In this document: in pieces, positions 4,480 to 44,652 of the stretch | Layout of the letters: each line of letters opens with the position of its first letter | Numbering within the stretch: the stretch's first letter is position 1 | Source of the DNA: a virus | Length of the DNA: 44,652 nucleotides | Direction: 5' to 3' (one strand) | IMG/VR virus record: IMGVR_UViG_3300009085_000043 | Span: 1 to 44,652 of that record | Translations under genes and position numbers: made by a program | The notes under the pieces: generated by a model | What the model was told of the DNA's origin: nothing | The model's input: the letters and a program-made list of their open reading frames with translations, nothing else | The model's database searches: none

Positions 4480-4483
4480 CTAT

Positions 4484-21900: not shown

Positions 21901-23147
21901 TTTACAGGATCAGCAATACCCTTGTAGGTCTGCCACATTTCACCTTTTTTGGTTGTTCCTTTACCAGAAACGAACCCGGCAATATCGCTCAATAAGTCGC
22001 CCGTGGTACCAACCTCGTACGTCAACTTAAGGGTTTCTCGTAATTCCTTACTGTACTCTTTTCCAACATAATCGAGAACGGCTGACATATCATCGTCCTC
22101 AATAGCAACAGCGATAGCACCAATAACCTGTTCCGCAGGTCTGGAGCCAATGTCAAAGATTTTTCCGATCCTTTCCATGAAACCATCGTAAGTACTTACG
22201 TACCACTCTGGCATTTCCTGGGTCTGCCATTTGTCTACTGCATCATAAATCGATCTCTTCTCTGAAAGAGAGAGGCTATTCCACTGTTCGTCCGTCATCC
22301 TCTTATATTGAGGGAGTTTTGGTTGAACTTTTGGATCAAACGCTGGCGCCTTATAGTCCCTTTTCATTTCTATGTTTCTTGAAACTTCAGTCGCATAAAC
22401 AACGCCAGTCACAGCCATAGCAGCAATCGGACTCTTCGTAATACTTAATGTAGCAAAGCCCATCATGCCAGCCTGCACCAGTGGACTCAACCAGGTCTGG
22501 GCTTTACTGGCGCTCTCGCTCATTCCAGGGGCAGTCCCCTTGTTCATTGTAAGCATTTCTATCTGCTGTGCCCAACCAAGTTTGTTGTAGTCACCGCTTA
22601 TGATCGGGTTAATTGGGTTCGCAAGATCATACTCTTCTTCTATACCAATATCATCTGGGTGCACGGGTGCCGGCATAGCCCGCAGGATTTTACTGGCGGG
22701 ATCATCTTCTGGCAAGTACGCCCAGGAGGTCTTTGGTGTACCTCTCATTCTGTTAGACAGATAAAGGTAGGCGCTGTCAACAACCCGACGATCAACCCAG
22801 GTTGGCGCAATTCCAGCGTCAGACATTTGCTTATAACGAACTACATTCTGTGGGTTTTCCCAGAAACCACGGAACCCTTCAGTCGCCAGTGGTTGTCTTG
22901 GCGCTGTTCTCCATGCCTCTTCCCCGATCTTGATAGGGTTACTTGGGTACCTTTCAATAACCTTCATCTGCTGTGTATATTTACGAGCAGCAGAAAGATT
23001 ACTCTGGGAGTGCGCACCGCTCGCCCAACGAACGCCACCAGTTGTAGGGTCATAGACCCTAATCCTTTCTGGCTGATCGTAGTTTTCTGACCAGTGCGGC
23101 ACCCCTTCTGCCGGTTTAGAGTTGTTAGGTTCGGTAGGAACGGTCAC
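15954..23147 (-). CDS. Giant virion protein, 2,397 residues, probable internal/ejection protein
   Basis: GTG start at 23147 with GGAG eight bases upstream. Largely helical and charged, lying between portal and scaffold genes. Seen: a hydrophobic stretch near residues 230-262 (MMGFATLSITKSPIAAMAV), long coiled-coil stretches around 1000-1300, an aromatic region PYQFWFTHTMRNWLLRTVDK with later FPVPFLPDFMGDTVWFDPF, and a duplicated C-terminal motif LFP...YWDW (near 2187-2220 and 2338-2374). It probably is packed in the head and ejected with DNA, as large internal proteins of podoviruses are. No catalytic motif found; vRNA polymerase not supported. Confidence 0.7.
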   Translation of the reverse strand: MTVPTEPNNSKPAEGVPHWSENYDQPERIRVYDPTTGGVRWASGAHSQSNLSAARKYTQQMKVIERYPSNPIKIGEEAWRTAPRQPLATEGFRGFWENPQNVVRYKQMSDAGIAPTWVDRRVVDSAYLYLSNRMRGTPKTSWAYLPEDDPASKILRAMPAPVHPDDIGIEEEYDLANPINPIISGDYNKLGWAQQIEMLTMNKGTAPGMSESASKAQTWLSPLVQAGMMGFATLSITKSPIAAMAVTGVVYATEVSRNIEMKRDYKAPAFDPKVQPKLPQYKRMTDEQWNSLSLSEKRSIYDAVDKWQTQEMPEWYVSTYDGFMERIGKIFDIGSRPAEQVIGAIAVAIEDDDMSAVLDYVGKEYSKELRETLKLTYEVGTTGDLLSDIAGFVSGKGTTKKGEMWQTYKGIADPVKVDFEMGGGALDDMRNRIIAGENAEDVMAEYEENFGAEGLINDFVYQSLFDPLALAPVAGAKAMEGVGKIAKEPGLVRAGKEAGWNFSNKKTIGRMVADIIPGASIILPGLSKGKIQPSTGILGALSAYKSFLHTDFIGGKIAPSKLSRFAQVVGGLTREGKMKAFEPTRLELLNKKPSPFKNPIKYFSYLSELSAVSKAFMYGYHTQDAIISLFEMGGYKPETIKTILTAAAQADGKLTMDQISAILDPMKDQGVLTDPRYFNSPIAASVHDGIKFFVENHLDIFINMFDAVAKNRKSLGLLAEIFDTTTSKVIRFAKDGVDFGSKAKTIQDPARLQLLTQLLADNGIANGDIDGFIKTELAPFTKKGAPDLYSEELFGRGVAQHFGNTMGEWIAGRYGITHDPTFQRFSGMLKSAQSILLLGWNPRYLINNEINNVVTRVATGIWGYVPRIQGEIDAYGIDLNRMDVKANMKSQGSDIGGGQFQKGIGNRNVGADWGWIERGSRFFRSAQDKVGFFSKWSANIESMESTQSLFIPFRDMRERLFRPQLPSDIKTELAAIDPSLPRRVEAAVRAGRNMNEILHNLQGDFILPEEFIGNVARKYADAHHRSIPAEELYTSLANRTGITQALKDGLEKLKDPTEAQILRVFDDVEKNFLKNASKANKESLEAHLEDLRVRASQQAGTRDFTELGRIYEEMILQDQLDGFNHMFEMDNVYQMKGVMEGAHFERELSRVNARETVRFEEAAARNKASFEVLLDTLGVKADDPHAKTIMDAFDQTLKRNKKFFDDKKKIFEEHRAKKFTDDAERVADLDAVRAASDKMWSQVQAEQAKLAERVDTALFRSLGNDPAVRQWRDGVSKLRRNLGKMVNDFRTGLNDPVTGVSNTVERRAAWNKFFMEDYFPAYVQVGFADVDGAQKVFNNRNGVVDYFAERGQQDPGYGKIPLTNEEAITRAGIEQRGAPEVAMVEVQKLLGGGELTVAVEAAGDLIHRMSESPTFETAGYNYVQEKVNLLISVLDHSPEQLLTIMEQVDQNIGYMIDQGRITDGSDAHWDRIDTALDKYVDAHRRLKPVNKVQKLANDIAIAVGSRNFELAKKLVLELEAILDKGLENWVKEAHSVDDAPWAVDMNVLNNDMALDSVIRAIYGDKILDEAQTVPGLVDQDGRVISPNRTIIGEEGLSKEQFIQDLFEEAQRQVSDQEFNRVPPNSAPQPTPQTQAAHETLFEHMLPLLDSIREETIAAYRNNGTKFSSLTPEVQAKVNEWARGLHSDFVTSKYAALKYGQTMRDLSMLNYQQKTNFDEQLNLAMPYQFWFTHTMRNWLLRTVDKSSWYNMYFRWREMQERLEKDGLPTRLNGKLAFPVPFLPDFMGDTVWFDPFTQLLPFAQMFQVVDNFARKGSNIEHGARTKIWNMVSAQAITREQAEMAINNMSGAIWEEAYAAASAEEDKDPLTLASLMISPAMYWTIPAQLISGNKDDISLTPGARTSQALQAQADETWGKGSTVGAVLGGLSWLETNLRKAVGMSPAVAKFGKYGDYYIERELANMAFDGRAGVYDAIDGIVTHSGDLYAEAEQSVARQLSLRTPGMLTIEALRGNASALETINSFFLSFFPLGLLPQGELKYKGIQQEFNKAWEIYSQTGDKSGVIDLYNKYPEMAARTALYQADPEERMKQYIIGKIGDVYYNAPDANQSAIKNALGEDFVDSFAVTDAKPELLSLETLMTYARMLNVMYPAKPQGVDMPNEPTVEEIEMYSEETSAAYQRFVNTRDVLFPFWWVEQQEYFDAKDAGEEPVIQENLQNYWDWKNEYIKKHPEISPVIESTKSVERSKYEGASIKDFDPVLIRQLSNFYVTGEVMSAGAWELLYETWEERGKPQGEFSRWMTREVQPALTGVPPEEESGFYLLDTRQQKMYAEYAAERDKLFPTIKEAKDLYYASEDKAVRRAVVKQYPVLEEYWDWDDEYEKRYPEIIGIKKIVSSTYK

Positions 23148-29885: not shown

Positions 29886-29963
29886 ATGAATGATTATTGT
29901 CTTATGCCGGGTACACGCCGGCGCCGTCTCAAGTTTATTATCCTGGAGGATAAAATCAAATGA
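29886..29963 (+). CDS. 25-residue basic leader-like peptide
   Basis: GGAGG stands seven bases before ATG 29886. The peptide holds TRRRRLKF and ends in an ATGA overlap with the next gene. It could be a leader peptide that couples translation, or a real small protein. Length is too short for similarity arguments. Confidence 0.45.
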   Translation: MNDYCLMPGTRRRRLKFIILEDKIK

Positions 29964-30274
29964 TAGAATTATCGAACGTGGTTAAATTGTCTCATTGTGT
30001 TAAAATCCTGGTACCATCCCGGAACCTGGAGGATGTAAAATCATATGCGGCAGAATTATCCCGGGTATATGGAGGATGTACAATTTATCCTGGGATCAAT
30101 GGAACCTGGGTTAATGACCTGGGTGAATTGATCGATGATCCTATAATTATCCTGGAGTCGTATTATCAGGATCAATCAATAGATCATGCTATTGAAATAG
30201 CAGCAACGATAAAAACAGAATTTAATCAGGATGCCGTTTCACTGATTAACGATAATTCACTATATTTAATATAA
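29960..30274 (+). CDS. Conserved small phage protein with GGxT motif
   Basis: 104 residues. SHCVKILVPSRNLEDVKSYA, RVYGGCTIYPGINGTWV, and a final QDAVSLIND form the pattern of a small phage family (with GGxT-x3-G-x-W) I know only as hypothetical; DUF3574-like proteins look similar. Translationally coupled to the leader peptide; an internal CTGGAGG box at 30025 is part of the coding sequence. Confidence 0.65.
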   Translation: MIELSNVVKLSHCVKILVPSRNLEDVKSYAAELSRVYGGCTIYPGINGTWVNDLGELIDDPIIILESYYQDQSIDHAIEIAATIKTEFNQDAVSLINDNSLYLI

Positions 30275-30288
30275 TCCTGGAGGATAAA

Positions 30289-30483
30289 ATGAATCAATCA
30301 TTCACTACATTAAAGGAATTGCATACACGTATACTGGAGGATAAAAAACGGGATATTGAATTGCAACGTCAACGCAAACTCAAGGAATTAACCCGGGATC
30401 ATGGTGATTTTCTGGATCAATGGATTAATGACCATCCCGGTTATACCATCCCGGTTAACTTTCTCAAGAAAGTAAAATCATAA
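30289..30483 (+). CDS. Small charged helical protein
   Basis: 64 residues, GGAGGA before ATG 30289. Lys/Arg/Glu-rich helix ILEDKKRDIELQRQRKLKEL (residues 15-34), then FLDQWINDHPGYTIPVNFL. No family recognised. Last clear gene before the repeat-rich segment 30484-30837. Confidence 0.6.
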   Translation: MNQSFTTLKELHTRILEDKKRDIELQRQRKLKELTRDHGDFLDQWINDHPGYTIPVNFLKKVKS

Positions 30484-30523
30484 TAACCTGGAGGATCGTA
30501 TTTTAATGATCCTGGAGGATCGT

Positions 30524-30553
30524 ATAATACCCATGTTAATGCATGGGTATTAT
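30524..30553 (+). repeat. 12-bp perfect hairpin
   Basis: ATAATACCCATG (30524-30535) and its exact complement (30542-30553), loop of six. It begins three bases after a CTGGAGGAT box, so the stem could hide or expose it. No T run follows, so it is not an ordinary terminator. Confidence 0.65.
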
Positions 30554-30661
30554 GCTTTAATGAACTTGTACGGAACCCTGGAGGATCGTAACCCTGGAGG
30601 TTCGTATAGCCGGGCGCGATCGCTGCCCTGGAGGAACCCGGCAGCCTGGGGATCGACGGCA

Positions 30662-30688
30662 GGGAGGGGAGGGAGGGGAGGGAGGGGA
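30662..30688 (+). repeat. Three 9-base repeats of GGGAGGGGA, G-quadruplex-like
   Basis: GGGAGGGGA repeats at 30662, 30671 and 30680 give six runs of three or four G separated by single A. One-base loops are the classical condition for a very stable parallel quadruplex, in RNA of the operon and in the plus DNA strand. GC-rich flanks (CGGCAG, GAGCCGC) follow. A replication slippage origin is possible. Confidence 0.65.
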
Positions 30689-30770
30689 GCCGCTGCAGCC
30701 TGGGAGCCGCTCATATATGTATTATTATCACCATGGTATTTAACGGTTTTCAATAATCAAATGGATTCCA

Positions 30771-30812
30771 GACCTTACAATTTTGTAAGGTCGATTGACC
30801 CTATTTTATGCT
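30771..30812 (+). promoter_or_regulatory. Operator and promoter before the main plus operon
   Basis: GACCTTACAA (30771-30780), two bases, TTGTAAGGTC (30783-30792): a perfect 10-bp inverted repeat. Its right half offers TTGTAA as -35 with TATGCT (30807-30812) 18 bases away. The same TTACAA/TTGTAA design overlaps the promoter at 29837. The operator position over the -35 fits repression. TTGACC at 30795 lacks a -10 at proper distance. Confidence 0.55.
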
Positions 30813-30837
30813 AATATGAACCTGGAGGTTAAATTAT

Positions 30838-31425
30838 ATGAATAACATATTGCATGCTTTCAAGATCGCTACTGATGACCAGATCGCCCGGGGTCTTAAA
30901 TGGTACCTTAACGCCCGTGATTGGGCAGCATGGGCAGCGGGTGAGTATAACACCTCCCCCGTTATTGTCGCCGGCATGATCGCCGCCTTGAGTCCTCGGA
31001 ACCGCTGGGAGTGGAGCCTACAGGATGTTATCAGGATATTAAATAAGATCGCCGCCGGGGATGATCCCACTACTGCGAAGAGTCATACATTTAATTCAAA
31101 TAAACTCAAGGCAATTGCAATTGCGCAGGGTCACCAGGGATTAATTACCGCCCAAAAAACAAGCGCCTTTTGTGACAATATCGTTAATCCTGGATCAAGG
31201 CGGGTCACCGTTGACGTGTGGGCTTGGAGGGTCTACACCGGCGAATATAACGCCCGCCCGATTGCAGTACGGGGTAAATTGTACGATATGATCGAAGAAA
31301 AATACCAGGCTGCAGCGGATCATGTGGGATTAAAACCCTATGAATTACAGGCTGTAACCTGGGGGGTCGCCAGGGATACCGGCGCCCGGTTTAATGAGTC
31401 AATACCGACTCACACCAATTATTAG
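30838..31425 (+). CDS. Conserved phage protein of the DUF7178 type, HhH-like
   Basis: 195 residues, GGAGG site before ATG 30838. Conserved stretches IAALSPRNRWEWSLQDVIRI, NKLKAIAI, KTSAFCDNI, VTVDVWAWRVYTGEY and ELQAVTWGVARDTG recall a family common in actinobacterial phages (as I recall, DUF7178), whose helical pattern resembles helix-hairpin-helix DNA glycosylases. DNA interaction is plausible, enzyme activity unproven. First large gene of the right plus operon. Confidence 0.65.
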   Translation: MNNILHAFKIATDDQIARGLKWYLNARDWAAWAAGEYNTSPVIVAGMIAALSPRNRWEWSLQDVIRILNKIAAGDDPTTAKSHTFNSNKLKAIAIAQGHQGLITAQKTSAFCDNIVNPGSRRVTVDVWAWRVYTGEYNARPIAVRGKLYDMIEEKYQAAADHVGLKPYELQAVTWGVARDTGARFNESIPTHTNY

Positions 31426-31447
31426 ATTGTAGAAAGGAGGTTCTATA

Positions 31448-31732
31448 ATGGGATACTCTCAAACCATGGGTTTTGCTGAACTTGTACAGGAGGGCAGCGT
31501 ACAATTACGGGCTGCCGTTGAGTACCAATTGACCGCCAACCACTACCCGCCGGTACCCAGGTCGATGATCGCCCCGTGCCTTATGGCAATTCATGCATGC
31601 AACGAGGGGAATTATAACGCCCAGATCGAACTGCCCGACGGGATCACCTGGAGGGGTCAGACCACGGCGCCCGCCGCCCAGATCGTTGAGGGTCACCACC
31701 TGGAGCCGTTTTGTGACCAGGACGAGGATTAA
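31448..31732 (+). CDS. Small hypothetical protein
   Basis: 94 residues, AAAGGAGG before ATG 31448. Helical N terminus (FAELVQEGSVQLRAAVEYQL), then APCLMAIHACNEGNYNAQIEL and an acidic end DQDED. A known function is not visible. Stop precedes the next start by one base. Confidence 0.6.
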   Translation: MGYSQTMGFAELVQEGSVQLRAAVEYQLTANHYPPVPRSMIAPCLMAIHACNEGNYNAQIELPDGITWRGQTTAPAAQIVEGHHLEPFCDQDED

Positions 31733-31733
31733 C

Positions 31734-31964
31734 ATGCCCAGACCGATTAACGAGATCGCCGCCGAGATCAGGCAGGATTGGCGCCCGGTGAATTATGCCG
31801 CCGTGCCATACCTGCAAGCCATGGGCAGCCTGGGAACCATTAACGACAATTACGGGCTGGATCGTGCCGACAATATCATTATGTATTTTCTCTGTAATGC
31901 TGGCACCTGGCGGGGCGAGACCGCCCGGAGGATTAAGGCTGAATTGAAAGCCTTAATAAAGTAG
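31734..31964 (+). CDS. Small helical protein
   Basis: 76 residues from ATG 31734, with GAGGA directly upstream; an upstream extension of the frame overlaps the previous gene without a site. NEIAAEIRQDWRPVNYAAVPYL, then NIIMYFLCNAGTWRGETARR. Composition and size fit a conserved phage small protein; function unknown. Confidence 0.6.
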   Translation: MPRPINEIAAEIRQDWRPVNYAAVPYLQAMGSLGTINDNYGLDRADNIIMYFLCNAGTWRGETARRIKAELKALIK

Positions 31965-31970
31965 TATAGC

Positions 31971-31994
31971 GGGGGAGGGTTAATCCCCTCCCCC
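31971..31994 (+). repeat. GC-rich hairpin between small genes
   Basis: GGGGGAGGG (31971-31979) pairs with CCCTCCCCC (31986-31994), loop of six; no T tract, so an RNA-stability or processing element is more likely than a terminator. It resembles the stem after the capsid genes at 13815-13838, whose loop also holds TTA. Confidence 0.6.
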
Positions 31995-32011
31995 AGAGAG
32001 GAGCATATATA

Positions 32012-32293
32012 ATGCCACAATTACCAGAGATCAAGAATTATGGGGATTACAGCAGCGATAATTATGGCGCCCACACCTTACGGGTTGACCTGGGCGAGAT
32101 TGAATTATGGTACTCATACCAAACAATCGTTGCGTACCGGGACGCCCAGGACGGGCTGACTATATCGGAAAACATCTGGGGCACCACTACCGGAAAACAT
32201 CTTAACTGGATCAATTCGGATCATTCCCGGCGCCTGGATCATAGCGAATTTTCAAAGAGATTGGCTGCTGCCCTGCAGCGGCACATCATATAA
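32012..32293 (+). CDS. Conserved phage small protein, DUF8033-like
   Basis: 93 residues, GAGGAG before ATG 32012. VDLGEIELWYSYQTIVAYRD, then ISENIWGTTTGKHLNWI and EFSKRLAAALQR match a phage family (DUF8033 as I recall) frequent in actinobacterial phages, function unknown. It lies between a hairpin and a zinc-ribbon gene. Confidence 0.65.
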   Translation: MPQLPEIKNYGDYSSDNYGAHTLRVDLGEIELWYSYQTIVAYRDAQDGLTISENIWGTTTGKHLNWINSDHSRRLDHSEFSKRLAAALQRHII

Positions 32294-32347
32294 TCAAACA
32301 GATAATTTAATACGGGGTGCGCATGTTACACGCACAGGAGGATTAAA

Positions 32348-32608
32348 ATGGCAAAGATTTTCAATAGTAGATTTTTCGAGATCACCCCAGACCCCGGCAT
32401 GGATATAATGGACAAGCCGATCCAGTTTTACATCAACCAGGAGCGGGACGGGGACGCCGTTTGTACATACTGCGGCACCCCCGCCCTCCAAGGGGAACAG
32501 ATCGCCTTTGATCCGGTACTGGATAGTGTGTACTGCACCAAAAAATGCCGGGATCAACACCTGGTATTTGAGCCTGGACTACTCAAGTTATACGAACAGG
32601 AGGAATAA
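32348..32608 (+). CDS. Zinc-ribbon-like small protein
   Basis: 86 residues, GGAGG before ATG 32348. CTYC (residues 39-42) and CTKKC (63-67) form a plausible four-cysteine site. N-terminal part beta-rich. Probably a small metal-binding regulator or adaptor. Function unknown. Confidence 0.65.
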   Translation: MAKIFNSRFFEITPDPGMDIMDKPIQFYINQERDGDAVCTYCGTPALQGEQIAFDPVLDSVYCTKKCRDQHLVFEPGLLKLYEQEE

Positions 32609-32610
32609 TT

Positions 32611-32817
32611 ATGAAAATGACCACGTTTAACGAACTGAAAATAGGGGATTTGTTCTACAAGTACGAAACCACAAAGTCCACACCCCTGGTGAAAATTGAA
32701 CCGATCTACCCAGAGGGCTGCCAGGCACTGAATTGCCACGACGACAACACGGGTGAATTGTTCACGATTGACCCAGGTAGATTGGTGTACACGGAGGATC
32801 AAAATGCCCAGGAATAA
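32611..32817 (+). CDS. Small phage protein with F-x-E-L-x-x-G-D-x-F motif
   Basis: 68 residues, GGAGG before ATG 32611. FNELKIGDLFYKYETTKSTP then LVKIEPIYPEG is the pattern of a small beta-barrel family found in many phages, of unknown function. Overlaps the next gene start by 14 bases. Confidence 0.6.
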   Translation: MKMTTFNELKIGDLFYKYETTKSTPLVKIEPIYPEGCQALNCHDDNTGELFTIDPGRLVYTEDQNAQE

Positions 32818-33244
32818 CATCACGATCTACGAGGACAACGGAAACAAGACGATGCTGGGGAGGGAGTGGAACAACGGGGATTGGAACCTGCGCCTCGCCA
32901 CTCGTTTAATTGACCTGGAGGGCGAAAACCCCAGGTACCAAATTGAAATAATCGCTGTGTCACCAGAGGCTGCCGGGGAAGAGAACCTTAAGCGAGCCAG
33001 GGAGTGCTGCGGGATCGATGAAAGCGATCACTACAAGCACATCGATTATGAGGTGTTGATCGATTATGGGGTTTATGCAACCCTCTGGGTTGAGACCGGC
33101 AACAACCTCCGGGTGCTGCTGAAAAAAGCCAATGCCCAGGTGCCGCTGATCCATGGGCTGTTCGGGTTCTTTATGGATCGCCAAGAAAACAGGATCGGAA
33201 ATACCGGCTGGGACTTTATCGCCGGGAGCATCGGGTTCAAATGA
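32804..33244 (+). CDS. Hypothetical protein
   Basis: 146 residues from ATG 32804 (GGAGGATCAAA upstream), overlapping the previous gene by 14 bases. Sequence with RNNITIYEDNGNKTMLGREW, YQIEIIAVSPEAAGEENLKR, VLIDYGVYATLWVETGNN. No family recognised. Ends with an ATGA overlap onto a 57-residue gene. Confidence 0.6.
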   Translation: MPRNNITIYEDNGNKTMLGREWNNGDWNLRLATRLIDLEGENPRYQIEIIAVSPEAAGEENLKRARECCGIDESDHYKHIDYEVLIDYGVYATLWVETGNNLRVLLKKANAQVPLIHGLFGFFMDRQENRIGNTGWDFIAGSIGFK

Positions 33245-33414
33245 GAAACCGCCGGGCACCCAAGAGAGAGACGCCCCAGAACCTGCTGCAGTGTTTCGGA
33301 GGCGACACTGCAGCACTGGAGGCGGCGATCCTGGCGCTGAAAACCCGCCAAGGTCTGGCAATTGAAAATGGCAAACTTTGCCATATACACGTTCGAACCA
33401 AGAGAGGAGGATAA
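33241..33414 (+). CDS. 57-residue basic protein
   Basis: Starts with ATGA overlap at 33241 and ends at 33414. Sequence begins RNRRAPKRETPQNLLQCF and ends HVRTKRGG; a central helix is Ala/Leu-rich. The end of the frame contains the AGGAGG that serves the following GTG start, so the two are consistent. Could bind nucleic acid. Alternative: the region belongs to an N-terminal extension of the next gene. Confidence 0.5.
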   Translation: MRNRRAPKRETPQNLLQCFGGDTAALEAAILALKTRQGLAIENGKLCHIHVRTKRGG

Positions 33415-33415
33415 T

Positions 33416-33871
33416 GTGGAAAAAATACTAAAAATGAGGGCGTACTCAAACAACCGCCCCGGCGATATGTACAACATCATAACTGTTGACCTGGTGCCGG
33501 CTGATCCAATCACCCTTGAAACCGTGCCGAACCACGCCGAGGACTTGTACTACGGGTATGAGCACCTCCGGTTTGAGGCACAGAATAACGCCTACCTGAA
33601 AGAGCACGCATGGTACGGCTGGAGCCTTCGGTGCATGGGTACCTTGAGTATTGAGGATGTGGAGCGGGTGTACAAGATCATGCGCCTGTTCAATACCCGT
33701 TACACCAGGGCGAGCGGCAGCACTGGGTTCCCCACAACCTTTGAGGAGTATGTGATGATCTCTGCCAAGGTTCTTAACGTGAAAGCATTTGAAATTGGAA
33801 ACATGGCTACAGTGGAGCCGAGTTTATTTCGATCCTGCCTGTCTGCGTTTATGAAAAGGATGACAGAATGA
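33416..33871 (+). CDS. Hypothetical protein
   Basis: 151 residues from GTG 33416, chosen for the AGGAGG five bases upstream. An in-frame upstream ATG at 33368 would overlap the 57-residue gene and has no site. Contains YGYEHLRFEAQNNAYLKEHA and YGWSLRCMGTLSIEDVERVY; alpha/beta mixture. Not recognised. Confidence 0.6.
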   Translation: MEKILKMRAYSNNRPGDMYNIITVDLVPADPITLETVPNHAEDLYYGYEHLRFEAQNNAYLKEHAWYGWSLRCMGTLSIEDVERVYKIMRLFNTRYTRASGSTGFPTTFEEYVMISAKVLNVKAFEIGNMATVEPSLFRSCLSAFMKRMTE

Positions 33872-33933
33872 ACTGCCTCGTTATCGCCATTATCATCCTG
33901 GGCTGTTTATTCAACTGGTTCGATCAACCATAG
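33868..33933 (+). CDS. 21-residue membrane micropeptide
   Basis: ATGA overlap with the previous gene. The peptide is one hydrophobic helix (CLVIAIIILGCLFNWF) followed by DQP, with a cysteine after ILG as in lipoprotein signals, but far too short for a lipoprotein precursor. Membrane micropeptides are common in phage accessory operons. Function unknown. Confidence 0.45.
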   Translation: MNCLVIAIIILGCLFNWFDQP

Positions 33934-33945
33934 AGAGGAGGTCTT

Positions 33946-34146
33946 ATGAACGCAAGCGAAGAGCGGGTTTTGAGTGTAAGGGCTGAAGAGGTATACAACT
34001 ACCTGGTAGACGAGATCGGGAACAAAAGCACGATCCATGACAGGACGAAAAATGACCGCCTGCACGTGCTGCTGCAGGTTCTCGAGTATATCCTGGGGAA
34101 CGAGGACGAAAACCCCATGGACGAAATATTTGGAAAGGAGGTATAA
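33946..34146 (+). CDS. Small acidic helical protein
   Basis: 66 residues, GAGGAGG before ATG 33946. Helices RVLSVRAEEVYNYLVDEIG and RLHVLLQVLEYILGNEDEN; acidic. Not recognised. Immediately followed by the next start codon at 34147, with a GGAGG just before it. Confidence 0.6.
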   Translation: MNASEERVLSVRAEEVYNYLVDEIGNKSTIHDRTKNDRLHVLLQVLEYILGNEDENPMDEIFGKEV

Positions 34147-34413
34147 ATGGAACCGAAAATTACCACACGCATTAACGGGTTCAGGCTGGACTTTGAGAAC
34201 GGGTACGCTGTTGAGGTGAGAGTAAAGGCGTGTATAATCGAACTGACAACCGAGAAGATCGTGTCGCCAGACGCAGAAATAACGATCTTTGACCGCCAGG
34301 GCACAAGGATCACCGGCGAGTGGAGCGGACTCGATGAATTAGTTTCTTATGACATTGAGCCGTACTGGATCGCAGACGCCATATCCTGGGCAGCAAGGCA
34401 GAGGAAACAATGA
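34147..34413 (+). CDS. Small beta-rich conserved phage protein
   Basis: 88 residues. FRLDFENGYAVEVRVKACII, then IVSPDAEITIFDRQGTRI and a C-terminal helix resembles a phage family with a conserved NGyavSV start and SPDAEIAI core, function unknown. GGAGG lies nine bases upstream. ATGA overlap with the next gene. Confidence 0.6.
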   Translation: MEPKITTRINGFRLDFENGYAVEVRVKACIIELTTEKIVSPDAEITIFDRQGTRITGEWSGLDELVSYDIEPYWIADAISWAARQRKQ

Positions 34414-34532
34414 TCTGTTCCAGGGAATGTAAGCCTCGCTGGGTTGCTGGCAAAGGATCATTTAATGGCTGGCGGCTGCTGTTGTGCAGCAGGCACCAGA
34501 TCATACACAAAATGAAGAAGGAGGAAGAATGA
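34410..34532 (+). CDS. 40-residue zinc-finger-like microprotein
   Basis: Begins in an ATGA overlap. Cysteines at 3, 7 and 26 and a histidine at 29 (CSREC, then CSRH) fit a C-x3-C / C-x2-H metal site; the end is a Lys/Glu helix. Ribosome coupling is suggested by overlaps at both ends. Function unknown. Confidence 0.5.
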   Translation: MICSRECKPRWVAGKGSFNGWRLLLCSRHQIIHKMKKEEE

Positions 34533-34750
34533 ACCTAATGTATATTAAGCCGATTGACATAGTAATTAACCTCGATAACGTATCCCAAGTACACTTCGAG
34601 GCATACAACGAGTTATACAACAACGATCCAAAGTACAATCTGTTGATCGACTTCAGTGACGGAGCAAGTACCCGCTTGATCCAGGGCGACCTGGCAAAAA
34701 AGGTGTATGACAGGATCAGGAACCTCTGCTCCGCTATAGTGGAGGGATAA
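34529..34750 (+). CDS. Small hypothetical protein
   Basis: 73 residues from ATG 34529 (AAGGAGGAAGA upstream). MNLMYIKPIDIVINLDNVSQ, then helical SDGASTRLIQGDLAKKVYDR. Alpha/beta, no family. Two bases before the methyltransferase start, so probably coupled. Confidence 0.6.
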   Translation: MNLMYIKPIDIVINLDNVSQVHFEAYNELYNNDPKYNLLIDFSDGASTRLIQGDLAKKVYDRIRNLCSAIVEG

Positions 34751-34752
34751 CA

Positions 34753-35331
34753 ATGGCTATAGTCATGCACTTTGGGGACTCCGCAGAGTTTCTTCTCGAA
34801 CTGGCAGACAAGTCTGTTGACGCCATCATCACTGATCCACCCTATGATTTTAATGAGGTGACCAAAGCATGGTACCAGGCACAGTTTACCCGTATATCAC
34901 TGGGCGCCGTGATCGTGTTCTGTCCTCCAGAAAACCAATGGCAGCGCACGTGTGACCAGTGGTTGTTTTGGGTCAAGCCGATCTCAACCAAGAACACCAG
35001 CAAGTCCTACTCCAGATTCGTTGAAATGATCCAGGTGTGGAACGGTGAAACCTGGGACACAACCAACCACTGGAGCCAGTACACCAATGTGTTCACTGAC
35101 CTTGTTGACGGTAAACTGCATCCGTACCAGAAACCGGTGTCCATGATGACACGCCTGATAAGGAACCATACCAAGATGGGTGATCTGGTGCTTGATCCAT
35201 TTGCCGGGAGCGCAACCACCGGGGTCTCTTGTTTCCAGACCAGGCGCCGGTTCCTGGGAGTTGAGAAAGAACTGATCCACTACAACGAGGCAGTACTACG
35301 CCTTGAGGGACTGGGAGCAAAGGTGTATTAA
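34753..35331 (+). CDS. DNA adenine/cytosine-N4 methyltransferase, beta group
   Basis: 192 residues. Motif IV TDPPYDF (D28-Y31) comes before motif I DPFAGSATTG (148-157), with HPYQKP (123-128): the circular order of beta-class N6-adenine/N4-cytosine MTases such as small phage enzymes. It transfers methyl from S-adenosylmethionine to DNA, probably protecting the phage against host restriction. No nuclease partner is near, so it is an orphan MTase. The target site cannot be read from the sequence. GGAGGG site upstream. Confidence 0.9.
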   Translation: MAIVMHFGDSAEFLLELADKSVDAIITDPPYDFNEVTKAWYQAQFTRISLGAVIVFCPPENQWQRTCDQWLFWVKPISTKNTSKSYSRFVEMIQVWNGETWDTTNHWSQYTNVFTDLVDGKLHPYQKPVSMMTRLIRNHTKMGDLVLDPFAGSATTGVSCFQTRRRFLGVEKELIHYNEAVLRLEGLGAKVY

Positions 35332-35417
35332 TGCTATCCGAACCCTTGTTTTGGAGTTTTGTGATCGGGTTCGTGATCGGGTTGATCGCCTACGACATAT
35401 ATGAAAGGAGGAAATAA
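35331..35417 (+). CDS. 28-residue membrane micropeptide
   Basis: ATG at 35331 overlaps the MTase stop. One hydrophobic helix FWSFVIGFVIGLIAYDIY with basic end ERRK, giving a typical positive-inside anchor. Its codons contain the AGGAGG of the next gene. Function unknown. Confidence 0.45.
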   Translation: MLSEPLFWSFVIGFVIGLIAYDIYERRK

Positions 35418-35683
35418 TGCCAGAAGATTTTGAATACCCCTTTGAATACACCGTCGTACCAATGTGTATCCCTGCGGTACTGCAAGCGCTCGGTTTTCAC
35501 TACCGGGAAAATGAAAGGGTATGGCTATGGGGGGACGAGGCAGAGATCATCCTCGAGAACAATAAGCCTGTTGACTTCAGGAAACCTCTGTCTGTGATCT
35601 TCAGCACCTACAGAATGTGGGGGAGGGAGGAGGCGCTTGCCAATATCAGAAAAGCAATTGGAGCCAAGAGAGACGATGAATAG
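35417..35683 (+). CDS. Small hypothetical protein
   Basis: 88 residues, AGGAGG before ATG 35417. EYTVVPMCIPAVLQALGFHY, then VWLWGDEAEIILENNKP. Ordered alpha/beta look. No family recognised. Confidence 0.55.
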   Translation: MPEDFEYPFEYTVVPMCIPAVLQALGFHYRENERVWLWGDEAEIILENNKPVDFRKPLSVIFSTYRMWGREEALANIRKAIGAKRDDE

Positions 35684-35876
35684 GTATAGTATCGTAAACT
35701 GGGACAAGGGCGTGTTTGCTGAATTTGAGACTAGGGAACAGGCAGTACAGTTCAGGCTTGACCACCAAGACATCTTCAAGCACTGCCCAGCACGTCCGGT
35801 GCTGCAGTTGTGCCCGTCAAAAGTTGAGTGTGGAGTGATCCACGAAATAGGAGTTGAAAATGAACCAGGGGTATAA
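35676..35876 (+). CDS. Small hypothetical protein
   Basis: 66 residues from ATG 35676, overlapping the previous gene by eight bases. MNRYSIVNWDKGVFAEFETR, then a helix EQAVQFRLDHQDIFKH and CPARPVLQLC. The ribosome site is weak (GAGAGACG), so coupling is likely. Confidence 0.55.
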   Translation: MNRYSIVNWDKGVFAEFETREQAVQFRLDHQDIFKHCPARPVLQLCPSKVECGVIHEIGVENEPGV

Positions 35877-36063
35877 CCCAAGGGACGACAGGTACTACGA
35901 TCCTCCAGAGGAACCCGACGAGGCGGTTTGCGAGGGGTGCCAGGTTGATTGTTTCTTTGATGACCTGGAGGAGGTCAACGGGAAATGGTTGTGTGCAGCG
36001 TGCGTAAAAAAAGAGGCAGCCATGATCGCAAAAAAGAGAGGAGGAGTAAATGGCAAGAAATAA
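35860..36063 (+). CDS. Small zinc-ribbon protein
   Basis: 67 residues from ATG 35860 (AGGAG upstream; an in-frame TTG 35854 is less likely). CEGC and CAAC pairs separated by about 24 residues form a CxxC/CxxC zinc site, followed by a Lys-rich tail. It overlaps the neighbours at both ends. Function unknown. Confidence 0.65.
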   Translation: MNQGYNPRDDRYYDPPEEPDEAVCEGCQVDCFFDDLEEVNGKWLCAACVKKEAAMIAKKRGGVNGKK

Positions 36064-36268
36064 TGTAACGTACCGGATCGTGGTAAATACACCGAACCCA
36101 AACTACTCGCTCGAAATAAAAGACGAGACCGAGGCAATCAAGAAGGCAGATAAAATATCAAAACTGTTCCCCTGCACGATGGTAGTCGTGCAGCGCAAAT
36201 TTGCCAACAGCGAAGATCAGTGGGTTGAGATCGATAGAACCACATTCAACTGGAAAAAAGAGGAGTAA
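36050..36268 (+). CDS. Small beta-rich protein
   Basis: 72 residues, AGGAGGAG before ATG 36050. NVTYRIVVNTPNPNYSLEIK, EAIKKADKISKLFPCTMVVV. One helix between beta strands. Not recognised. Confidence 0.55.
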   Translation: MARNNVTYRIVVNTPNPNYSLEIKDETEAIKKADKISKLFPCTMVVVQRKFANSEDQWVEIDRTTFNWKKEE

Positions 36269-36269
36269 A

Positions 36270-36524
36270 ATGCCAAAATTAGCGTGCGTTAAATGCCAGG
36301 TCGAGTACGTCCAAATAGGAATTGGCGTATATGCCATTGAGACCTTCCTCGACAAAGAGCCGTACAAAATCTGGCGTGCTGATATGTGGGCGTGTCCAAA
36401 GTGCAGGCACAAAGTCCTGGACGGGTACGGGAAAAACCCAATTGCCATGCACTTTGAGGAAAAGTTTCAAGAGGTCTTACTCGAGGCGAAAGAGGGGACT
36501 CACGTGTTTATACACGAAAAGTAA
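36270..36524 (+). CDS. Zinc-ribbon protein, last gene of plus operon
   Basis: 84 residues from ATG 36270 (GAGGAG upstream). CVKC (near residue 6) and CPKC (near 44) frame a beta-rich middle part, a rubredoxin-like spacing. Fourth or fifth small Cys-pair protein of the operon. It ends just before the bidirectional terminator. Confidence 0.65.
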   Translation: MPKLACVKCQVEYVQIGIGVYAIETFLDKEPYKIWRADMWACPKCRHKVLDGYGKNPIAMHFEEKFQEVLLEAKEGTHVFIHEK

Positions 36525-36551: not shown

Positions 36552-37061
36552 CTTAATTATTTCCTCGATCTGTTCCAGGATTGTTTCGATCCTCTCCCGC
36601 AGAAAACGGGGGAGGTTTATTATGTACCTCCTGATAGGCTGAAGCACAGAGTCCAGGCTTTCGCTATTTGCCTCTTTTATTGCGAACTCGGATATGCAGG
36701 CGTCCACCGTCTGGGGTCTGGAGTCCATGGAGCCTATCGCCCATTCAAGAACCCTTTCCCAGTCATCTGATCTCATAGCCACTTTGAAATGGTCAAAGGA
36801 CAGGATCGGGTACCGCTCTCTTATCTGTTGCGGGTAGAATGAGGACACCACAGAATACGAGCGCACGGTTCGTGCCTGCTTGCCATAGTATGATCCAATT
36901 GCCGAATACATAAAAGCCTTGGTCACACCAAAATCCTTGGCACGGTGCGTATACTTGTTTGCCAGATCACCAACCCGGAACTGTGCAAACGTAGAGTGAT
37001 CTCTCATTGAGAGTAACTCGTTTATGTCGTCTGGTTCGAGAATATCATCATAGCCTGCCAT
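36537..37061 (-). CDS. Helical DNA-binding-like protein
   Basis: 174 residues, GAGG before ATG 37061. Helices with a possible HTH near 32-60 (FGVTKAFMYSAIGSYYGKQA), then ARTVRSYSVVSSFYPQQIRE, ILSFDHFKVAMRSDDWE and VLEWAIGS. This pattern is like helical plasmid/phage regulators with DHF-x-V-A motifs. Alternative: nucleoid-type protein. It overlaps the GT2 gene by 14 bases. Confidence 0.55.
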   Translation of the reverse strand: MAGYDDILEPDDINELLSMRDHSTFAQFRVGDLANKYTHRAKDFGVTKAFMYSAIGSYYGKQARTVRSYSVVSSFYPQQIRERYPILSFDHFKVAMRSDDWERVLEWAIGSMDSRPQTVDACISEFAIKEANSESLDSVLQPIRRYIINLPRFLRERIETILEQIEEIIKEAVS

Positions 37062-37725
37062 AGAACCTCTTTATCTTTGCGTTTTCCCATATCAACCGGT
37101 CTGCTTTTCGGAACTCGAGGTTATCTCCCCTGTCCCAGAACTCGCCCAGGCGGTACTTCAGGTGAGTGAAAAGCACTCCAGCCCGCTGCAGCCGCATCCA
37201 GAACTCGTAATCCCCAGCAATATCATAAGTGGTGTCATATAAACCATATTTTTTATGCAGGATCGACCTGTACATGGGGAAATGCCCAATGTAACACCCG
37301 TCATAAAGGTCATTGTCTGGATCACGTAGATCAAGAAACCCAACAGGATCACCGTGCTGCTCTTTTACGATCACGCTGTCAGCATACACCAAACCAGCAT
37401 CAGGGTTTTCGTCCAGGGTACCAGCCATGACCTCAACGGCATTGTTCCTCAAGAGATCGTCCGAGTTGGCGATCATCACGTAGTCACTAGCAAAATCCAG
37501 CGCCATATTCCACGCCTCGTACACGTTCGGAACCAGGTGCGGGGGTAAATAGGGAGTGAATATCTTGCACTCTTTGTACTTACTGGCTATCTTTTCTTCC
37601 TTACTACCCATAGGGCATATAATAATAGGGGTTACCTGCCTGGTCTGTTCCAGGAGGTTTCTGATCCTGTTATCCAGCCACTCTTCACAGTAGTAAGCAG
37701 AGACAATTGCATTAACGGTTGTCAT
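37048..37725 (-). CDS. Glycosyltransferase family 2-like
   Basis: 225 residues. VNAIVSAYYCEEWLDNRIRN (nucleotide-sugar domain start), YVMIANSDD (acidic metal motif at 87-90), AGLVYAD, and late GDYEFWMRLQRAG (typical of the GT-A acceptor motif). It transfers a sugar from a nucleotide donor. Overlaps its neighbours by 14 bases on both sides; last catalytic gene of the cassette 37.0-39.7 kb. Confidence 0.85.
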   Translation of the reverse strand: MTTVNAIVSAYYCEEWLDNRIRNLLEQTRQVTPIIICPMGSKEEKIASKYKECKIFTPYLPPHLVPNVYEAWNMALDFASDYVMIANSDDLLRNNAVEVMAGTLDENPDAGLVYADSVIVKEQHGDPVGFLDLRDPDNDLYDGCYIGHFPMYRSILHKKYGLYDTTYDIAGDYEFWMRLQRAGVLFTHLKYRLGEFWDRGDNLEFRKADRLIWENAKIKRFYGRL

Positions 37726-38326
37726 TTTGTCTCACAATCACTATCCCGTGTTCTGTTTTCTTCCAGGTTCTCCATCCCTCTCGTAGCGCAAGCGCCACAG
37801 CGAGCATTACCTCGTGGTGCGCACCATCGAAATTATCAAACATGATCGCTTTTGCTATATCCTTTACGTTCCGAAAGTCACGATATGGCATATACCCTTC
37901 GTGGTCGCCATCGATAAACACAGTATCAAAGTCCATGCCAACGAACGGGAATGGATCGCTTTTCACGCAACACAGGAGGTAATTTGAAAAAGTGAGCAAG
38001 TCCAGGTTATTAAGCACGGTCTCTGGATCAACCTTCAAGCCCGTACACGGGTCTAATTCGTTTCCGTAATCCGGGTGACCTTTGTAGTAGCCATCAAGTG
38101 GATCAATGCCAACAACCAGAGGATCATCGTCTATCGAACCCATCTGGTTAAGCAGGCTGCCGGCAAACACCAGAGAGCCGCCGAACAAAACCCCGATCTC
38201 GAGGTGATTACCGCCGCCAAGGGTTTGGATCATATCACCCAGCAAAAGCATTTCGTCGTCCTCTGTCGCTATACGCCCAACCATTCTCGCTTTAATGTCG
38301 TCCAGTATTTCTTTATGACTCGCCAT
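37712..38326 (-). CDS. SAM-dependent methyltransferase, MTase_24-like
   Basis: 204 residues from ATG 38326 (AAGGAGGAAG upstream). NHLEIGVLFGGS (motif I, 40-51), VVGIDPLDGYY, TVFIDGDHEGYMPYRDF (138-150) match the Methyltransf_24 group that methylates small molecules or sugars. A longer upstream reading lacks a start site. Being embedded between glycosyltransferase-type genes, a sugar O-methyl role is the best guess. Confidence 0.8.
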   Translation of the reverse strand: MASHKEILDDIKARMVGRIATEDDEMLLLGDMIQTLGGGNHLEIGVLFGGSLVFAGSLLNQMGSIDDDPLVVGIDPLDGYYKGHPDYGNELDPCTGLKVDPETVLNNLDLLTFSNYLLCCVKSDPFPFVGMDFDTVFIDGDHEGYMPYRDFRNVKDIAKAIMFDNFDGAHHEVMLAVALALREGWRTWKKTEHGIVIVRQNDNR

Positions 38327-38984
38327 AATCTTCCTCCTTTTCAAAAACATCGAGAGCGGTGCCAGGGGTGATGTTAATGATCCTCCTGCCGTCCTCTTCA
38401 AACACACGCTTTGCGATCTTGTACGCCCGCTCTGATCCTTCAAGGTCTGGAGCGTTCCAAACTTTATTGTCAGAAAAGTAGTGTGGATCAAAGTGGTTCG
38501 GGTCTGCGCCAGCAGCCACCAATTCCTGGTGAGGAGCACCGTCAAACTTGTATGAGTGATCCACTCCAACAAGAAGAACGGTAGAGAACCCCATCCAATA
38601 AGCCAACTGCAGACAAACGTAAGTGACCGTGTTCCCCTCGTTTACGCCCTTCCATGGTTCATGCGAGAAAGCCATCGTGTAAAAAGAGTGGAGGGGTATC
38701 TGCTCTATGCTCCCAGGTATCTTCACCTTTTCAGTGACAAACTTCACCGTCCCAAGGTGACCAATATCATCCTTGTATTGACTCGCAACCAACTCGTTGA
38801 TACACACGTAATAGGTTGGAACAAAGTTTTTGAGGTAAATACGGTTCGTTCCAAAAGAGGTATATGAGCACAGGAACTCGTTGGTCTCGTCAGCCAGGGA
38901 CTTCCCGTTCCCAATTACCAAACAAGTCTCGCCCTGGTGCAGGTTGTGGTACGCATCCCAAACCTCCTTAATGCGATCTTGCAT
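38313..38984 (-). CDS. MptE/DUF115-like protein
   Basis: 223 residues. CLVIGNGKSLADE (21-33) and later VTYVCLQLAYWMGFSTVLLV, GVDHSYKFDG resemble the MptE-like/DUF115 family. In bacteria such proteins act in surface or flagellar glycan synthesis, possibly as sialic-acid-type transferases; the archaeal homologues phosphorylate a pterin. Context with GT genes favours glycan modification. Overlaps neighbours by 14 and 17 bases. Confidence 0.75.
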   Translation of the reverse strand: MQDRIKEVWDAYHNLHQGETCLVIGNGKSLADETNEFLCSYTSFGTNRIYLKNFVPTYYVCINELVASQYKDDIGHLGTVKFVTEKVKIPGSIEQIPLHSFYTMAFSHEPWKGVNEGNTVTYVCLQLAYWMGFSTVLLVGVDHSYKFDGAPHQELVAAGADPNHFDPHYFSDNKVWNAPDLEGSERAYKIAKRVFEEDGRRIINITPGTALDVFEKEEDYGES

Positions 38985-39687
38985 AGTACGACCTCCAGGT
39001 TTCTTCTTTCACAGTATGGTAGTCTATGTGAGGGGATGTTACGTCTGGATCACAGAACAGCCGTATACCAGCCTCACGGCAGCGCCTTGAAAACACAGTG
39101 TCCTCGCCAGCATAATACCCGGTTTCCCACATAGAAAAATCATTCTCAAACCATGGCGGGGTCAAGTCCTCAAAGACTGTTCTATTGATAAGTATGCAGC
39201 CCGTTCCCAGCATATCAACCTCGAGCAACTTTCCCTTCTCAAACTTTGTTGGAAAAGTAAACTCGCCCTTATCGTTCTTGATCCCTATACAAGGATTGTA
39301 CGGGGGGCGGCGACCATAATTTAGACCACCAACTACCTGAATATCTGGGTAGATGATCGCCCACTTCGCCAGCCTTTCAACAATATCTGCCGGGTGTACA
39401 TGGTCAAGGTCAAGCATAAGAACGTGGGTAAACTCGGTTCCCAATAACTGGATCGCTGCTTTGTTTCTACTGATTGCTACCGGGGAATACTCCGACCAGA
39501 TAAAATCAGCGCCCCGCTGGGCGATCTGCGTGATCTGTGGGAGTACGGAGTCTGCGTATGAGATTGTTCTTTCAAGAGGGATAAACACAAGAACCCTCGG
39601 GTAGTTCCATCCATTTATTGGAACCCTCTTCAAGTCTTGTTCAATTTGTTCGAGCCGCTCCGGGTTCTGCGTTAAATATTCTTCCAT
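38968..39687 (-). CDS. Glycosyltransferase, GT-A fold
   Basis: 239 residues from ATG 39687 (GGAGG six bases upstream). VLVFIPLERTISYADSVLP, ISRNKAAIQ, HVLMLDLDHVHP (acidic motif 93-99), IQVVGGLNYGRRPPYNP, GTGCILINRTVFEDL and GEDTVFSRRCREAGI are typical GT-A features. It starts the four-gene sugar/methyl cassette. The upstream 16 codons of the frame are not counted because the ribosome site lies inside them. Confidence 0.85.
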   Translation of the reverse strand: MEEYLTQNPERLEQIEQDLKRVPINGWNYPRVLVFIPLERTISYADSVLPQITQIAQRGADFIWSEYSPVAISRNKAAIQLLGTEFTHVLMLDLDHVHPADIVERLAKWAIIYPDIQVVGGLNYGRRPPYNPCIGIKNDKGEFTFPTKFEKGKLLEVDMLGTGCILINRTVFEDLTPPWFENDFSMWETGYYAGEDTVFSRRCREAGIRLFCDPDVTSPHIDYHTVKEETWRSYYARSH

Positions 39688-39862
39688 CTTCATCCTCCAT
39701 GAGCAAAAAATCAGTTCCTTCTGTTTCGTCAACAATACACTGGACAGTGGGACTATCCAGCCCCGTGATAGAACTCAACTCTTCTATCGTACGACCTGGA
39801 TAGTCCCTTATCACATCGTAAATACGCCTACTGTTATTCGACGCCGGCTTCAGCAAGTTCAA
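39641..39862 (-). CDS. Small winged-HTH protein, start uncertain
   Basis: 73 residues if it starts at TTG 39862. Core RRIYDVIRDYPGRTIEELSS, then ITGLDSPTVQCIVDETEG, is a helix-turn-helix with a typical IYDVIRDYPG entry. It overlaps the holin gene by 29 bases and the glycosyltransferase gene by 47. No good ribosome site, so a coupled or alternative start is possible. Confidence 0.5.
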   Translation of the reverse strand: MNLLKPASNNSRRIYDVIRDYPGRTIEELSSITGLDSPTVQCIVDETEGTDFLLMEDEDGRIFNAEPGAARTN

Positions 39863-40256
39863 GTTTGACTTCGTTTTGTGCTCGCAAGGACTCGTTCTTC
39901 AATGGATTGCTGCGATTTAATTCAGTCCAGACAGCAGCCTCGATCTTTGCCACAATAACAGCAAGATCGATCTTGAACCCCCGGAACTCCAACCATTCCT
40001 GCGCCACATCAATAGCATATTCTTTCTTGTCGGTAATGAACCCGGCGAGATTGGCTTGCTCTGCAGCATTAACAGCGGCAACAACTGCCTCGTCAAGCGC
40101 CCACGCCATTTCTTCTGACAACTTCGATTTGATATTGGCGACAACCTGCTTGATCTTCGCAACGGCTAACACCGCTAGGGCAGACACAAGCACCGGCAGT
40201 ACAACAGACATAAACTGCTCGGCAAATATAGATAGTACGTCTTTCCAGATTTCCAT
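39834..40256 (-). CDS. Phage holin of LLH type
   Basis: 140 residues from ATG 40256 (AAAGGAG upstream). One membrane segment VVLPVLVSALAVLAVAKI (about 17-34), then a long helix and WALDEAVVAAVNAAEQANL, YAIDVAQEWLEFRGFKIDL, IEAAVWTELN as in the LL-H holin family. It lies 33 kb away from the endolysin and its three-helix holin, so the phage would have two holin-like genes. Confidence 0.75.
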   Translation of the reverse strand: MEIWKDVLSIFAEQFMSVVLPVLVSALAVLAVAKIKQVVANIKSKLSEEMAWALDEAVVAAVNAAEQANLAGFITDKKEYAIDVAQEWLEFRGFKIDLAVIVAKIEAAVWTELNRSNPLKNESLRAQNEVKLELAEAGVE

Positions 40257-40257
40257 T

Positions 40258-40521
40258 TCATTTACTCCTTTTTGTTTTATTATACCCGACAAACAAACTG
40301 TTTTTTGGCGGGTCTTTATCGGTTCTCACGACGAGCAGGTATTCCTGCCATTTTACGGCACTTTCTGGTGTGTACCCGTACTGTTTTTCAAATTTTGCCA
40401 GAGCCTCCTCTATTGTATATGCGTTCTTTTTGATCCCGTCACCAATCCAGTACCCAACATAATCATTTGGTAAGTCGTTTACCTTTGCAGTACGGGGAAG
40501 TTCAGTTATTTTGGTTTCCAA
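40258..40521 (-). CDS. Small hypothetical protein
   Basis: 87 residues from TTG 40521, with GAAGGG eight bases upstream. KVNDLPNDYVGYWIGDGIKK, EALAKFEKQYGYTPESAVKW. No family recognised. Overlaps the HTH gene end. Its 3' end holds the TATAAT-like stretch near 40280 but without other promoter features. Confidence 0.5.
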   Translation of the reverse strand: METKITELPRTAKVNDLPNDYVGYWIGDGIKKNAYTIEEALAKFEKQYGYTPESAVKWQEYLLVVRTDKDPPKNSLFVGYNKTKRSK

Positions 40522-44025: not shown

Positions 44026-44204
44026 TTCAGCAATCCCTTTTTTCTTATTTCTTCAATCGCCCGGCGATCCATTTCGTGGACGTAGCGCACGGCGTATTCT
44101 TGAAACAAGGGGATAACAATAACCTGAATCACAAAGAAGAAACCTACGATACTGAACCAGGCTACCTTGATACTTGCCTCGATCTTCAATATTGTATTAT
44201 CCAA
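44022..44204 (-). CDS. Small membrane protein
   Basis: 60 residues from TTG 44204, with AAGGAGA five bases upstream. A membrane helix VAWFSIVGFFFVIQVIVIPL, then helical YVHEMDRRAIEEIRKKGLLK. The frame is open to 44258 but without another site. Overlaps the ERF end by eight bases. Confidence 0.5.
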   Translation of the reverse strand: MDNTILKIEASIKVAWFSIVGFFFVIQVIVIPLFQEYAVRYVHEMDRRAIEEIRKKGLLK

Positions 44205-44652
44205 GAATCTCTCCTTGACCGCCGAACAACTCTTCAGCAGCACGATCAGCCTGGTCACCAGCCGTTTTCATTACATCCTTGTAGTTGGCGATCAGAACCT
44301 TGATAGCAGCCATCTTCATGGCGTGCTCCTGGGTAAACTTGTCGGGGTTATCTTTCTTGTACTTGGTCATCGAGTTGAAACGGGTTGTCAGTTCTTCCAT
44401 TTTCAACTTGCCATAAGGGGTTCCGTCCTCGGCAGTAACAGCGCTTGCCTCTTCATAGGTCAGTTCAACTTTTTCTGACTTACTTGGTACCCCGCCAAGT
44501 TCCTGGGCAGCCTCTTTCAAGCCTGCTGGCTTACCGCCTTTACTCGATTTCCGTTCCTCTGGTTGACTCTGGTCTGGATCATCACCAGTTTCGATCATAA
44601 ACGCCTGGCGTAGAGCGTACTTGTAGCAGTCCGTCATGGCTTTATTGACCGC
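44197..44652 (-). CDS. erf: ERF-family ssDNA annealing recombinase, C-terminal part (cut by window edge)
   Basis: The frame is open to the right edge (152 codons, no start needed). AVNKAMTDCYKYALRQAFMI, then ETGDDPD is the conserved C-terminal signature of the ERF domain; a disordered linker and a charged tail follow. It continues the protein that leaves the left edge. About 45-60 residues of the domain are missing between both parts, by comparison with the usual ERF length. Confidence 0.85.
   Translation of the reverse strand, partial: AVNKAMTDCYKYALRQAFMIETGDDPDQSQPEERKSSKGGKPAGLKEAAQELGGVPSKSEKVELTYEEASAVTAEDGTPYGKLKMEELTTRFNSMTKYKKDNPDKFTQEHAMKMAAIKVLIANYKDVMKTAGDQADRAAEELFGGQGEILG

Follow-up and report, generated by a model that had tools for sequence, protein, structure and literature searches.

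A recurrent glycosyltransferase cassette of uncultured tailed phages as a probable unit for virion-protein glycosylation

In mycobacteriophages, capsid and tail-tube proteins are glycosylated by phage-encoded glycosyltransferases (PMC12363180); the work on Che8 gp108-gp110 and Corndog gp38 is that of Freeman et al. 2023, taken here as it is cited in PMC12363180. Two further systems are of interest for comparison: A197 of the archaeal Sulfolobus turreted icosahedral virus (STIV), an essential viral glycosyltransferase proposed to act on the capsid protein, which is itself glycosylated (PMC10551542), and the Maf enzymes, which O-glycosylate flagellin with nonulosonic acids on Ser/Thr (PMC11339370). 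Here we analyse the 44,652 bases of the IMG/VR record IMGVR_UViG_3300009085_000043, an uncultured virus; this stretch as a whole is called the window. In it, four intact minus-strand genes at 37048-39687, named A to D in the order of transcription, encode three predicted glycosyltransferases (A, B and D) and a putative methyltransferase (C). We propose, with a probability of roughly 0.6, that this cassette is a phage unit for the glycosylation and O-methyl capping of one or more virion proteins, on the basis, obtained by computation, of families, folds, catalytic-type residues, co-inheritance, gene fusions and gene position.

By analogy, the glycosylation of mycobacteriophage particles is the closest working counterpart. 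Che8 carries a comparable phage-encoded set of three adjacent glycosyltransferases, one of which has an apparent methyltransferase-like part, as read from its sequence. Unlike the cassette, the Che8 set holds no GT42/Maf-like enzyme, and its genes lie at the right end of the genome, not between capsid and tail genes. Homology of A, B and C to the Che8 enzymes was rejected by sequence comparison, gp108-110 having none to these three and a weak GT2-superfamily similarity to D.

Predicted enzymes of the cassette

Gene A reaches no Pfam cut-off; its product has PHROG matches to phrog_1574 (9e-13) and to a family of phage glycosyltransferases (1.6e-4), and the family profile finds one significant structure in the PDB, 2c0n, which is STIV A197 (4e-4). 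The same structure is the top Foldseek match (E 4.1e-9, target TM-score (TMt) 0.65) of the AlphaFold model of A (predicted local distance difference test score, pLDDT, 88.6), further matches being glycosyltransferases that include collagen hydroxylysine galactosyltransferase and mimivirus R699. A DxD motif (D93, D95), the pair E195-D196 and H220 are invariant in 16 sequences. The model fits a GT-A glycosyltransferase, as a first-pass annotation of this DNA had proposed, with a metal-binding DxD, and one that is predicted to be A197-like. By profile and by fold A197 is the closest solved relative of A, and both are viral; it differs from the cassette in being a single enzyme of an archaeal virus, and we know of no partners of A197 that would correspond to B, C or D.

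For B, the first-pass label was MptE/DUF115-like. As a Pfam name it stands, since B scores above the cut-off of MptE-like (PF01973; 40.3 vs 34.6 bits, 3.7e-10), the only Pfam family it matches. Taken at its word, the label would make B a true MptE, a 6-hydroxymethylpterin pyrophosphokinase, and its neighbours an unrelated mosaic of moron genes. PF01973 presumably also covers Maf-type proteins, so that the match leaves the function unsettled. When a profile of 24 B sequences was compared with the PDB, all nine significant matches were sialyltransferases of the CstI/CstII type (2.8e-5 to 3.8e-4). The AlphaFold model of B (pLDDT 94.0) has as its top Foldseek match the Maf structure 5mu5 (E 8.5e-7, probability 1.0, over part of the chain), and it matches CstII (1ro7_D) with a probability of 0.98 but an E of 0.012. 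The solved structures that B resembles are thus sialyltransferases and Maf, not MptE; moreover, B occurs fused to A or to D and is almost never found without D. On fold and gene association we rejected the pterin-kinase reading, which we regard as extremely improbable, and as a guide to function the label is misleading: a GT42/Maf-like glycosyltransferase is the better reading of the predicted activity.

In the B sequences the motif G-N-G-x-S-L, N47, N63, D142-H143 and H164 are invariant or nearly so, and the Asn of GNGxSL and that of FxxN align with CstI/CstII; the invariant H143 and H164 are candidate catalytic His residues that are not aligned to a known base. CstI/CstII, which have the G-N-G-x-S-L and F-x-x-N motifs in common with B, are its sole significant solved sequence relatives, whereas CstII is 11% identical to B in the fold alignment, which does not place the equivalent of the catalytic His. 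Maf, the best fold match, is a multi-domain enzyme of about 600 residues (632 in 5mu5, TMt 0.23), whereas B is a single domain of 223; its donor sugars are nonulosonic acids, and no nonulosonic-acid genes were found in the phage records. B accordingly resembles Maf in its predicted working, yet the model is not that of a canonical Maf. Proteins of uncultured Caudovirales with folds similar to that of B are annotated only as MptE-like or uncharacterized.

C falls just below the cut-off of Methyltransf_24 (PF13578; 24.7 vs 26.3 bits, 4.5e-5), and so does its homologue in contig L016 (L numbers are our handles for contigs). The label MTase_24-like given earlier to C describes the type of class-I methyltransferase correctly, at a score under the curated threshold. 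The best PDB match of the C profile is 6g7d (3.4e-6), a code that we take, as an assumption of ours, to denote the mycobacterial sugar 1-O-methyltransferase MeT1. The activity of MeT1 has been described (PMC9883506). From its sequence C is a class-I methyltransferase and a probable sugar O-methyltransferase, and homologues of C lie within the cassettes of other phages. D exceeds the Glycos_transf_2 cut-off (PF00535; 27.9 vs 23.3 bits, 2.6e-6), its profile finds chondroitin synthase (1e-14), SpsA (1.6e-12) and structures of the TarS/TarP type in the PDB, and D89-D90 and GDYEFW are invariant; its annotation as a GT2 glycosyltransferase is borne out at the level of sequence families.

Recurrence and genome position

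Viral contigs were scanned with B, A and D as separate seeds, and the members of the cassette were then counted with family profiles. Among 44 B-positive contigs, D is present in 43, A in 37 and C in 15. The sole contig without D is a 5.6-kb fragment (L048), and seven lack a scoring A (L129-L131, L138, L141-L143), of which L138 and L141-L143 carry a divergent A-like gene; L138 also has a GT61 enzyme. Proteins in which A and B are fused are found in L003-L008, L018, L088, L089 and L095, and fusions of B and D in L138 and L141-L143. Co-occurrence and fusion in both combinations indicate that A, B and D are one functional unit. This core is accompanied by exchangeable accessory genes: between the core genes of other phages lie GT2 enzymes, MobA-like nucleotidyltransferases, FkbM methyltransferases and NKWYS genes. 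A is also found in many contigs without B or D.

The earlier remark on the rarity of such a set in phages is true of sequenced isolates and fails for uncultured phages, in which A-B-D recurs. B has no match in 50,697 sequenced phage records and C none in named phages, while A and D give weak matches there (cyanophages, uncultured marine or spring phages). A search of the viral contigs with the single C sequence returned nothing, and the C homologues were found later by neighbourhood; among the papers that could be searched, none names a module of the A-B-D type.

The cassettes of some relatives are interrupted (L063, 7690-9955; L118, 5231-6370; L023, 7390-9316) by DNA methylase genes (L023, L063), a NUMOD3/GIY-YIG gene or an HNH gene, as though homing elements had visited them. 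L036, a contig assigned to the bin of a Candidatus Aminicenantes genome, has a nucleoside triphosphate (NTP) transferase, FkbM, B in broken form and D, in phage order, and is probably a phage fragment.

Position was counted in 33 B-positive and 44 A-only contigs, with capsid, head-tail adaptor, tape-measure and TerL genes assigned by PHROGs. The capsid gene lies upstream of the cassette or of A in 46 of the 46 contigs that show both, and a pre-tape-measure gene of about 330 or about 268 residues lies downstream in 36 of 36; in 41 of the 44 A-only contigs a head, neck or tail gene is found within 5 kb. In L016 the unit stands after the capsid gene, between the head-tail adaptor and tape-measure genes, an order retained, as far as the contigs reach, in L010, L011, L013, L019, L023, L026, L027, L043, L049 and L129; L025, L045 and L052, which belong to a different capsid lineage, have it at the equivalent position. 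In another eight contigs the cassette is upstream of TerL. It lies before TerL and portal in L003/L008, L018, L088, L095, L097 and L118, and before TerL with a DNA methylase in between in L014.

Several observations weigh against virion glycosylation. No acceptor emerged from the analysis. The cassettes of the window, L002, L024, L059 and L063 are not beside structural genes and follow recombination, HNH or small genes, or, in the window, a holin gene; the window's own capsid gene is far from the cassette at 37-40 kb, so that the association with virion genes is seen across relatives and not in the window's own sub-lineage. The position counts come from contigs that are not independent, with no null model for mere proximity, and the downstream tail gene, which has no family match, is named from its position. 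Two cassettes, as said, have DNA methylases inserted in them. Lastly, bacterial homologues of B lie in surface-polysaccharide loci, beside O-antigen ligase, FkbM methyltransferases and GT1/GT2 enzymes.

The last point leads to the serious rival, which we consider unlikely: the enzymes would alter a lipid-linked or surface glycan of the infected cell, for instance with an acidic sugar plus a methyl group, and so hide the receptor, which would block superinfection or keep progeny from being lost to debris. Lipopolysaccharide and wall polymers are substrates of GT42 enzymes and of GT2 enzymes such as TarP/TarS, and D matches structures of the TarS/TarP type. Bacterial homologues of D as well as of B occur in surface-glycan loci, among them giant proteins that unite B with multiple D domains, and the unit in the window adjoins the holin gene, outside the virion block. 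Set against this, A-D have no transmembrane-like segment, so that nothing in the cassette suggests a flippase or membrane transferase like GtrA/GtrB; the unit is inside the capsid-neck-tail block in most relatives; and A alone holds that position in phages that have neither B nor D. The giant bacterial proteins with B domains reach 2423 residues (L028, 812-7775; L029; L030), and those of L028 and L029 contain several D domains besides.

Proposed mechanism, donors and DNA modification

If the cassette does glycosylate virion proteins, soluble enzymes would modify newly synthesized capsid, decoration or tail-tube protein inside the infected cell. A would add the first sugar; two facts make it the likeliest primer, namely that it can stand by itself where capsid and tail genes meet and that its closest solved relative, A197, is a viral enzyme for which a capsid protein has been proposed as the substrate. 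D and B would extend the glycan, B being expected to use an acidic sugar activated by cytidine monophosphate (CMP), and C, where present, would cap it by O-methylation. Alternatively, B may act directly on the protein, which the Maf precedent (PMC11339370) would allow equally. In 17 phage records we found no NeuB/acidic-sugar synthase and no CMP-sugar synthetase, so the donors would be made by the host or B would use another nucleotide sugar; some relatives carry a nucleotidyltransferase of their own. Acceptor, donor and order of steps are inferred, as is the benefit, which may be altered adsorption, stability or surface recognition. Inside the L010 cassette, adjoining D, is a 204-residue protein of no known family (4055-4669), which may be a decoration protein and is a candidate for the acceptor.

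More tentatively, the whole may be an undescribed module of an A197-like GT-A, a GT42/Maf-like and a GT2 glycosyltransferase, with exchangeable methyl-, nucleotidyl- and glycosyltransferases, which would occur widely among uncultured tailed phages whose hosts are little-cultured bacteria and would build an acidic, methyl-capped glycan directly on a capsid or tail protein.

The first-pass annotation had offered three functions: decoration of virion proteins, alteration of host surface glycans, treated above, and modification of DNA bases. The first gains strong positional and structural support, while the third is left without a partner enzyme. Under it, the substrates of the glycosyltransferases would be hydroxymethylated bases in the phage's own DNA. 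DNA modification is a known role of phage glycosyltransferases (for example PMC12838424), and there is a DNA methylase gene in the window as well as those inside the cassettes of two relatives. We judge it very improbable. No hydroxymethylase of the thymidylate-synthase type was found in 11 records, in a search that scored control genomes as positive, nor any Tet/JBP match, in a search run without a positive control, and A and B match glycosyltransferases of proteins and glycans, not DNA glucosyltransferases. Both ends of the window fall within one Erf-like recombinase gene, the end fragments of 74 and 129 residues aligning to residues 16-89 and 130-252 of the Erf of L002, with about 40 codons absent at the junction. 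The record is hence a nearly complete, permuted genome, which also counts against DNA modification.

The locus in the window and wider significance

The features of the locus are collected in Table 1. The overlaps noticed at first pass, computed from the open reading frame (ORF) coordinates, are of 17 (A/B), 14 (B/C) and 14 bases (C/D), and D overlaps E by a further 14; lengths of 14-17 bases are ordinary for a phage operon. Purine-rich motifs resembling Shine-Dalgarno sequences stand 5' of A, B, C and E, and none was found upstream of D. The 73-residue ORF probably belongs to the same transcription unit, and the holin-like gene upstream of A is in one co-directional run with the cassette, which is consistent with late expression.

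Table 1. Features of the window, with positions in the record
Feature	Position	Strand	Product (residues)	Assignment or remark
Gene A	39687-38968	minus	239, ATG start	predicted GT-A glycosyltransferase, STIV A197-like
Gene B	38984-38313	minus	223, ATG start	predicted GT42/Maf-like glycosyltransferase, Pfam MptE-like
Gene C	38326-37712	minus	204, ATG start	putative class-I S-adenosylmethionine (SAM) methyltransferase, optional cassette member
Gene D	37725-37048	minus	225, ATG start	predicted GT2 glycosyltransferase
Gene E	37061-36537	minus	174	overlaps D by 14 bases
Small ORF	39641-39862	minus	73	directly 5' of A, overlapping A start; no PHROG match
Holin-like gene	39834-40292	minus		phrog_6918 holin (2.1e-10); hydrophobic segment
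Endolysin gene	6821-7822			
Capsid gene	14211-15176			
Long ORF	15954-23147		2397	between TerL-side genes and capsid gene
Small ORFs	29960-36524	plus		opposite to nearly all other genes
DNA methylase gene	34753-35331			within the block of small plus-strand ORFs
Erf-like recombinase gene	1-338, 44197-44652			both record ends

In the nearest relative, L002 (contig 3300002219_000069), the order A-B-C-D-E is kept, with protein identities to the window of 72 (A), 71 (B), 53 (C), 63 (D) and 76% (E). Synonymous sites are near saturation (proportion of synonymous differences, pS, 0.69-0.80), and the nonsynonymous proportion, pN, is only 0.19-0.32, with 0.19 for E, the mark of strong purifying selection on all five genes. 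The kept order and the low pN despite nearly saturated synonymous sites show that the cassette is not a chance assembly. Homologues of E follow the cassette in L002 and L024, so that its place is kept in the window's sub-lineage; E itself has no significant Pfam or PHROG family.

Elsewhere in the window, the holin-like gene adjoins the cassette and is distant from the endolysin gene, and the small plus-strand ORFs form a block that runs convergently towards the end of the cassette operon. As to the host, the TerL of L149, from genome G524 of the class that contains Leptolinea, is 42% identical to that of the window, a weak hint at a Chloroflexota host. Another genome of this class (Anaerolineae) has a phage-like region with a fusion of A and a GT2 enzyme between capsid and head-tail genes. 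For the phylum to which the Aminicenantes bin belongs, a sample taken without a control was empty.

So far, glycosylated particle proteins have been demonstrated in few phage systems. If virion proteins are indeed the targets of the cassette, particle glycosylation would be a common phage trait, the cassette would be a sequence signature by which it could be predicted, and the archaeal-virus glycosyltransferase A197 and the flagellin-type Maf fold would both be linked to phage particles.

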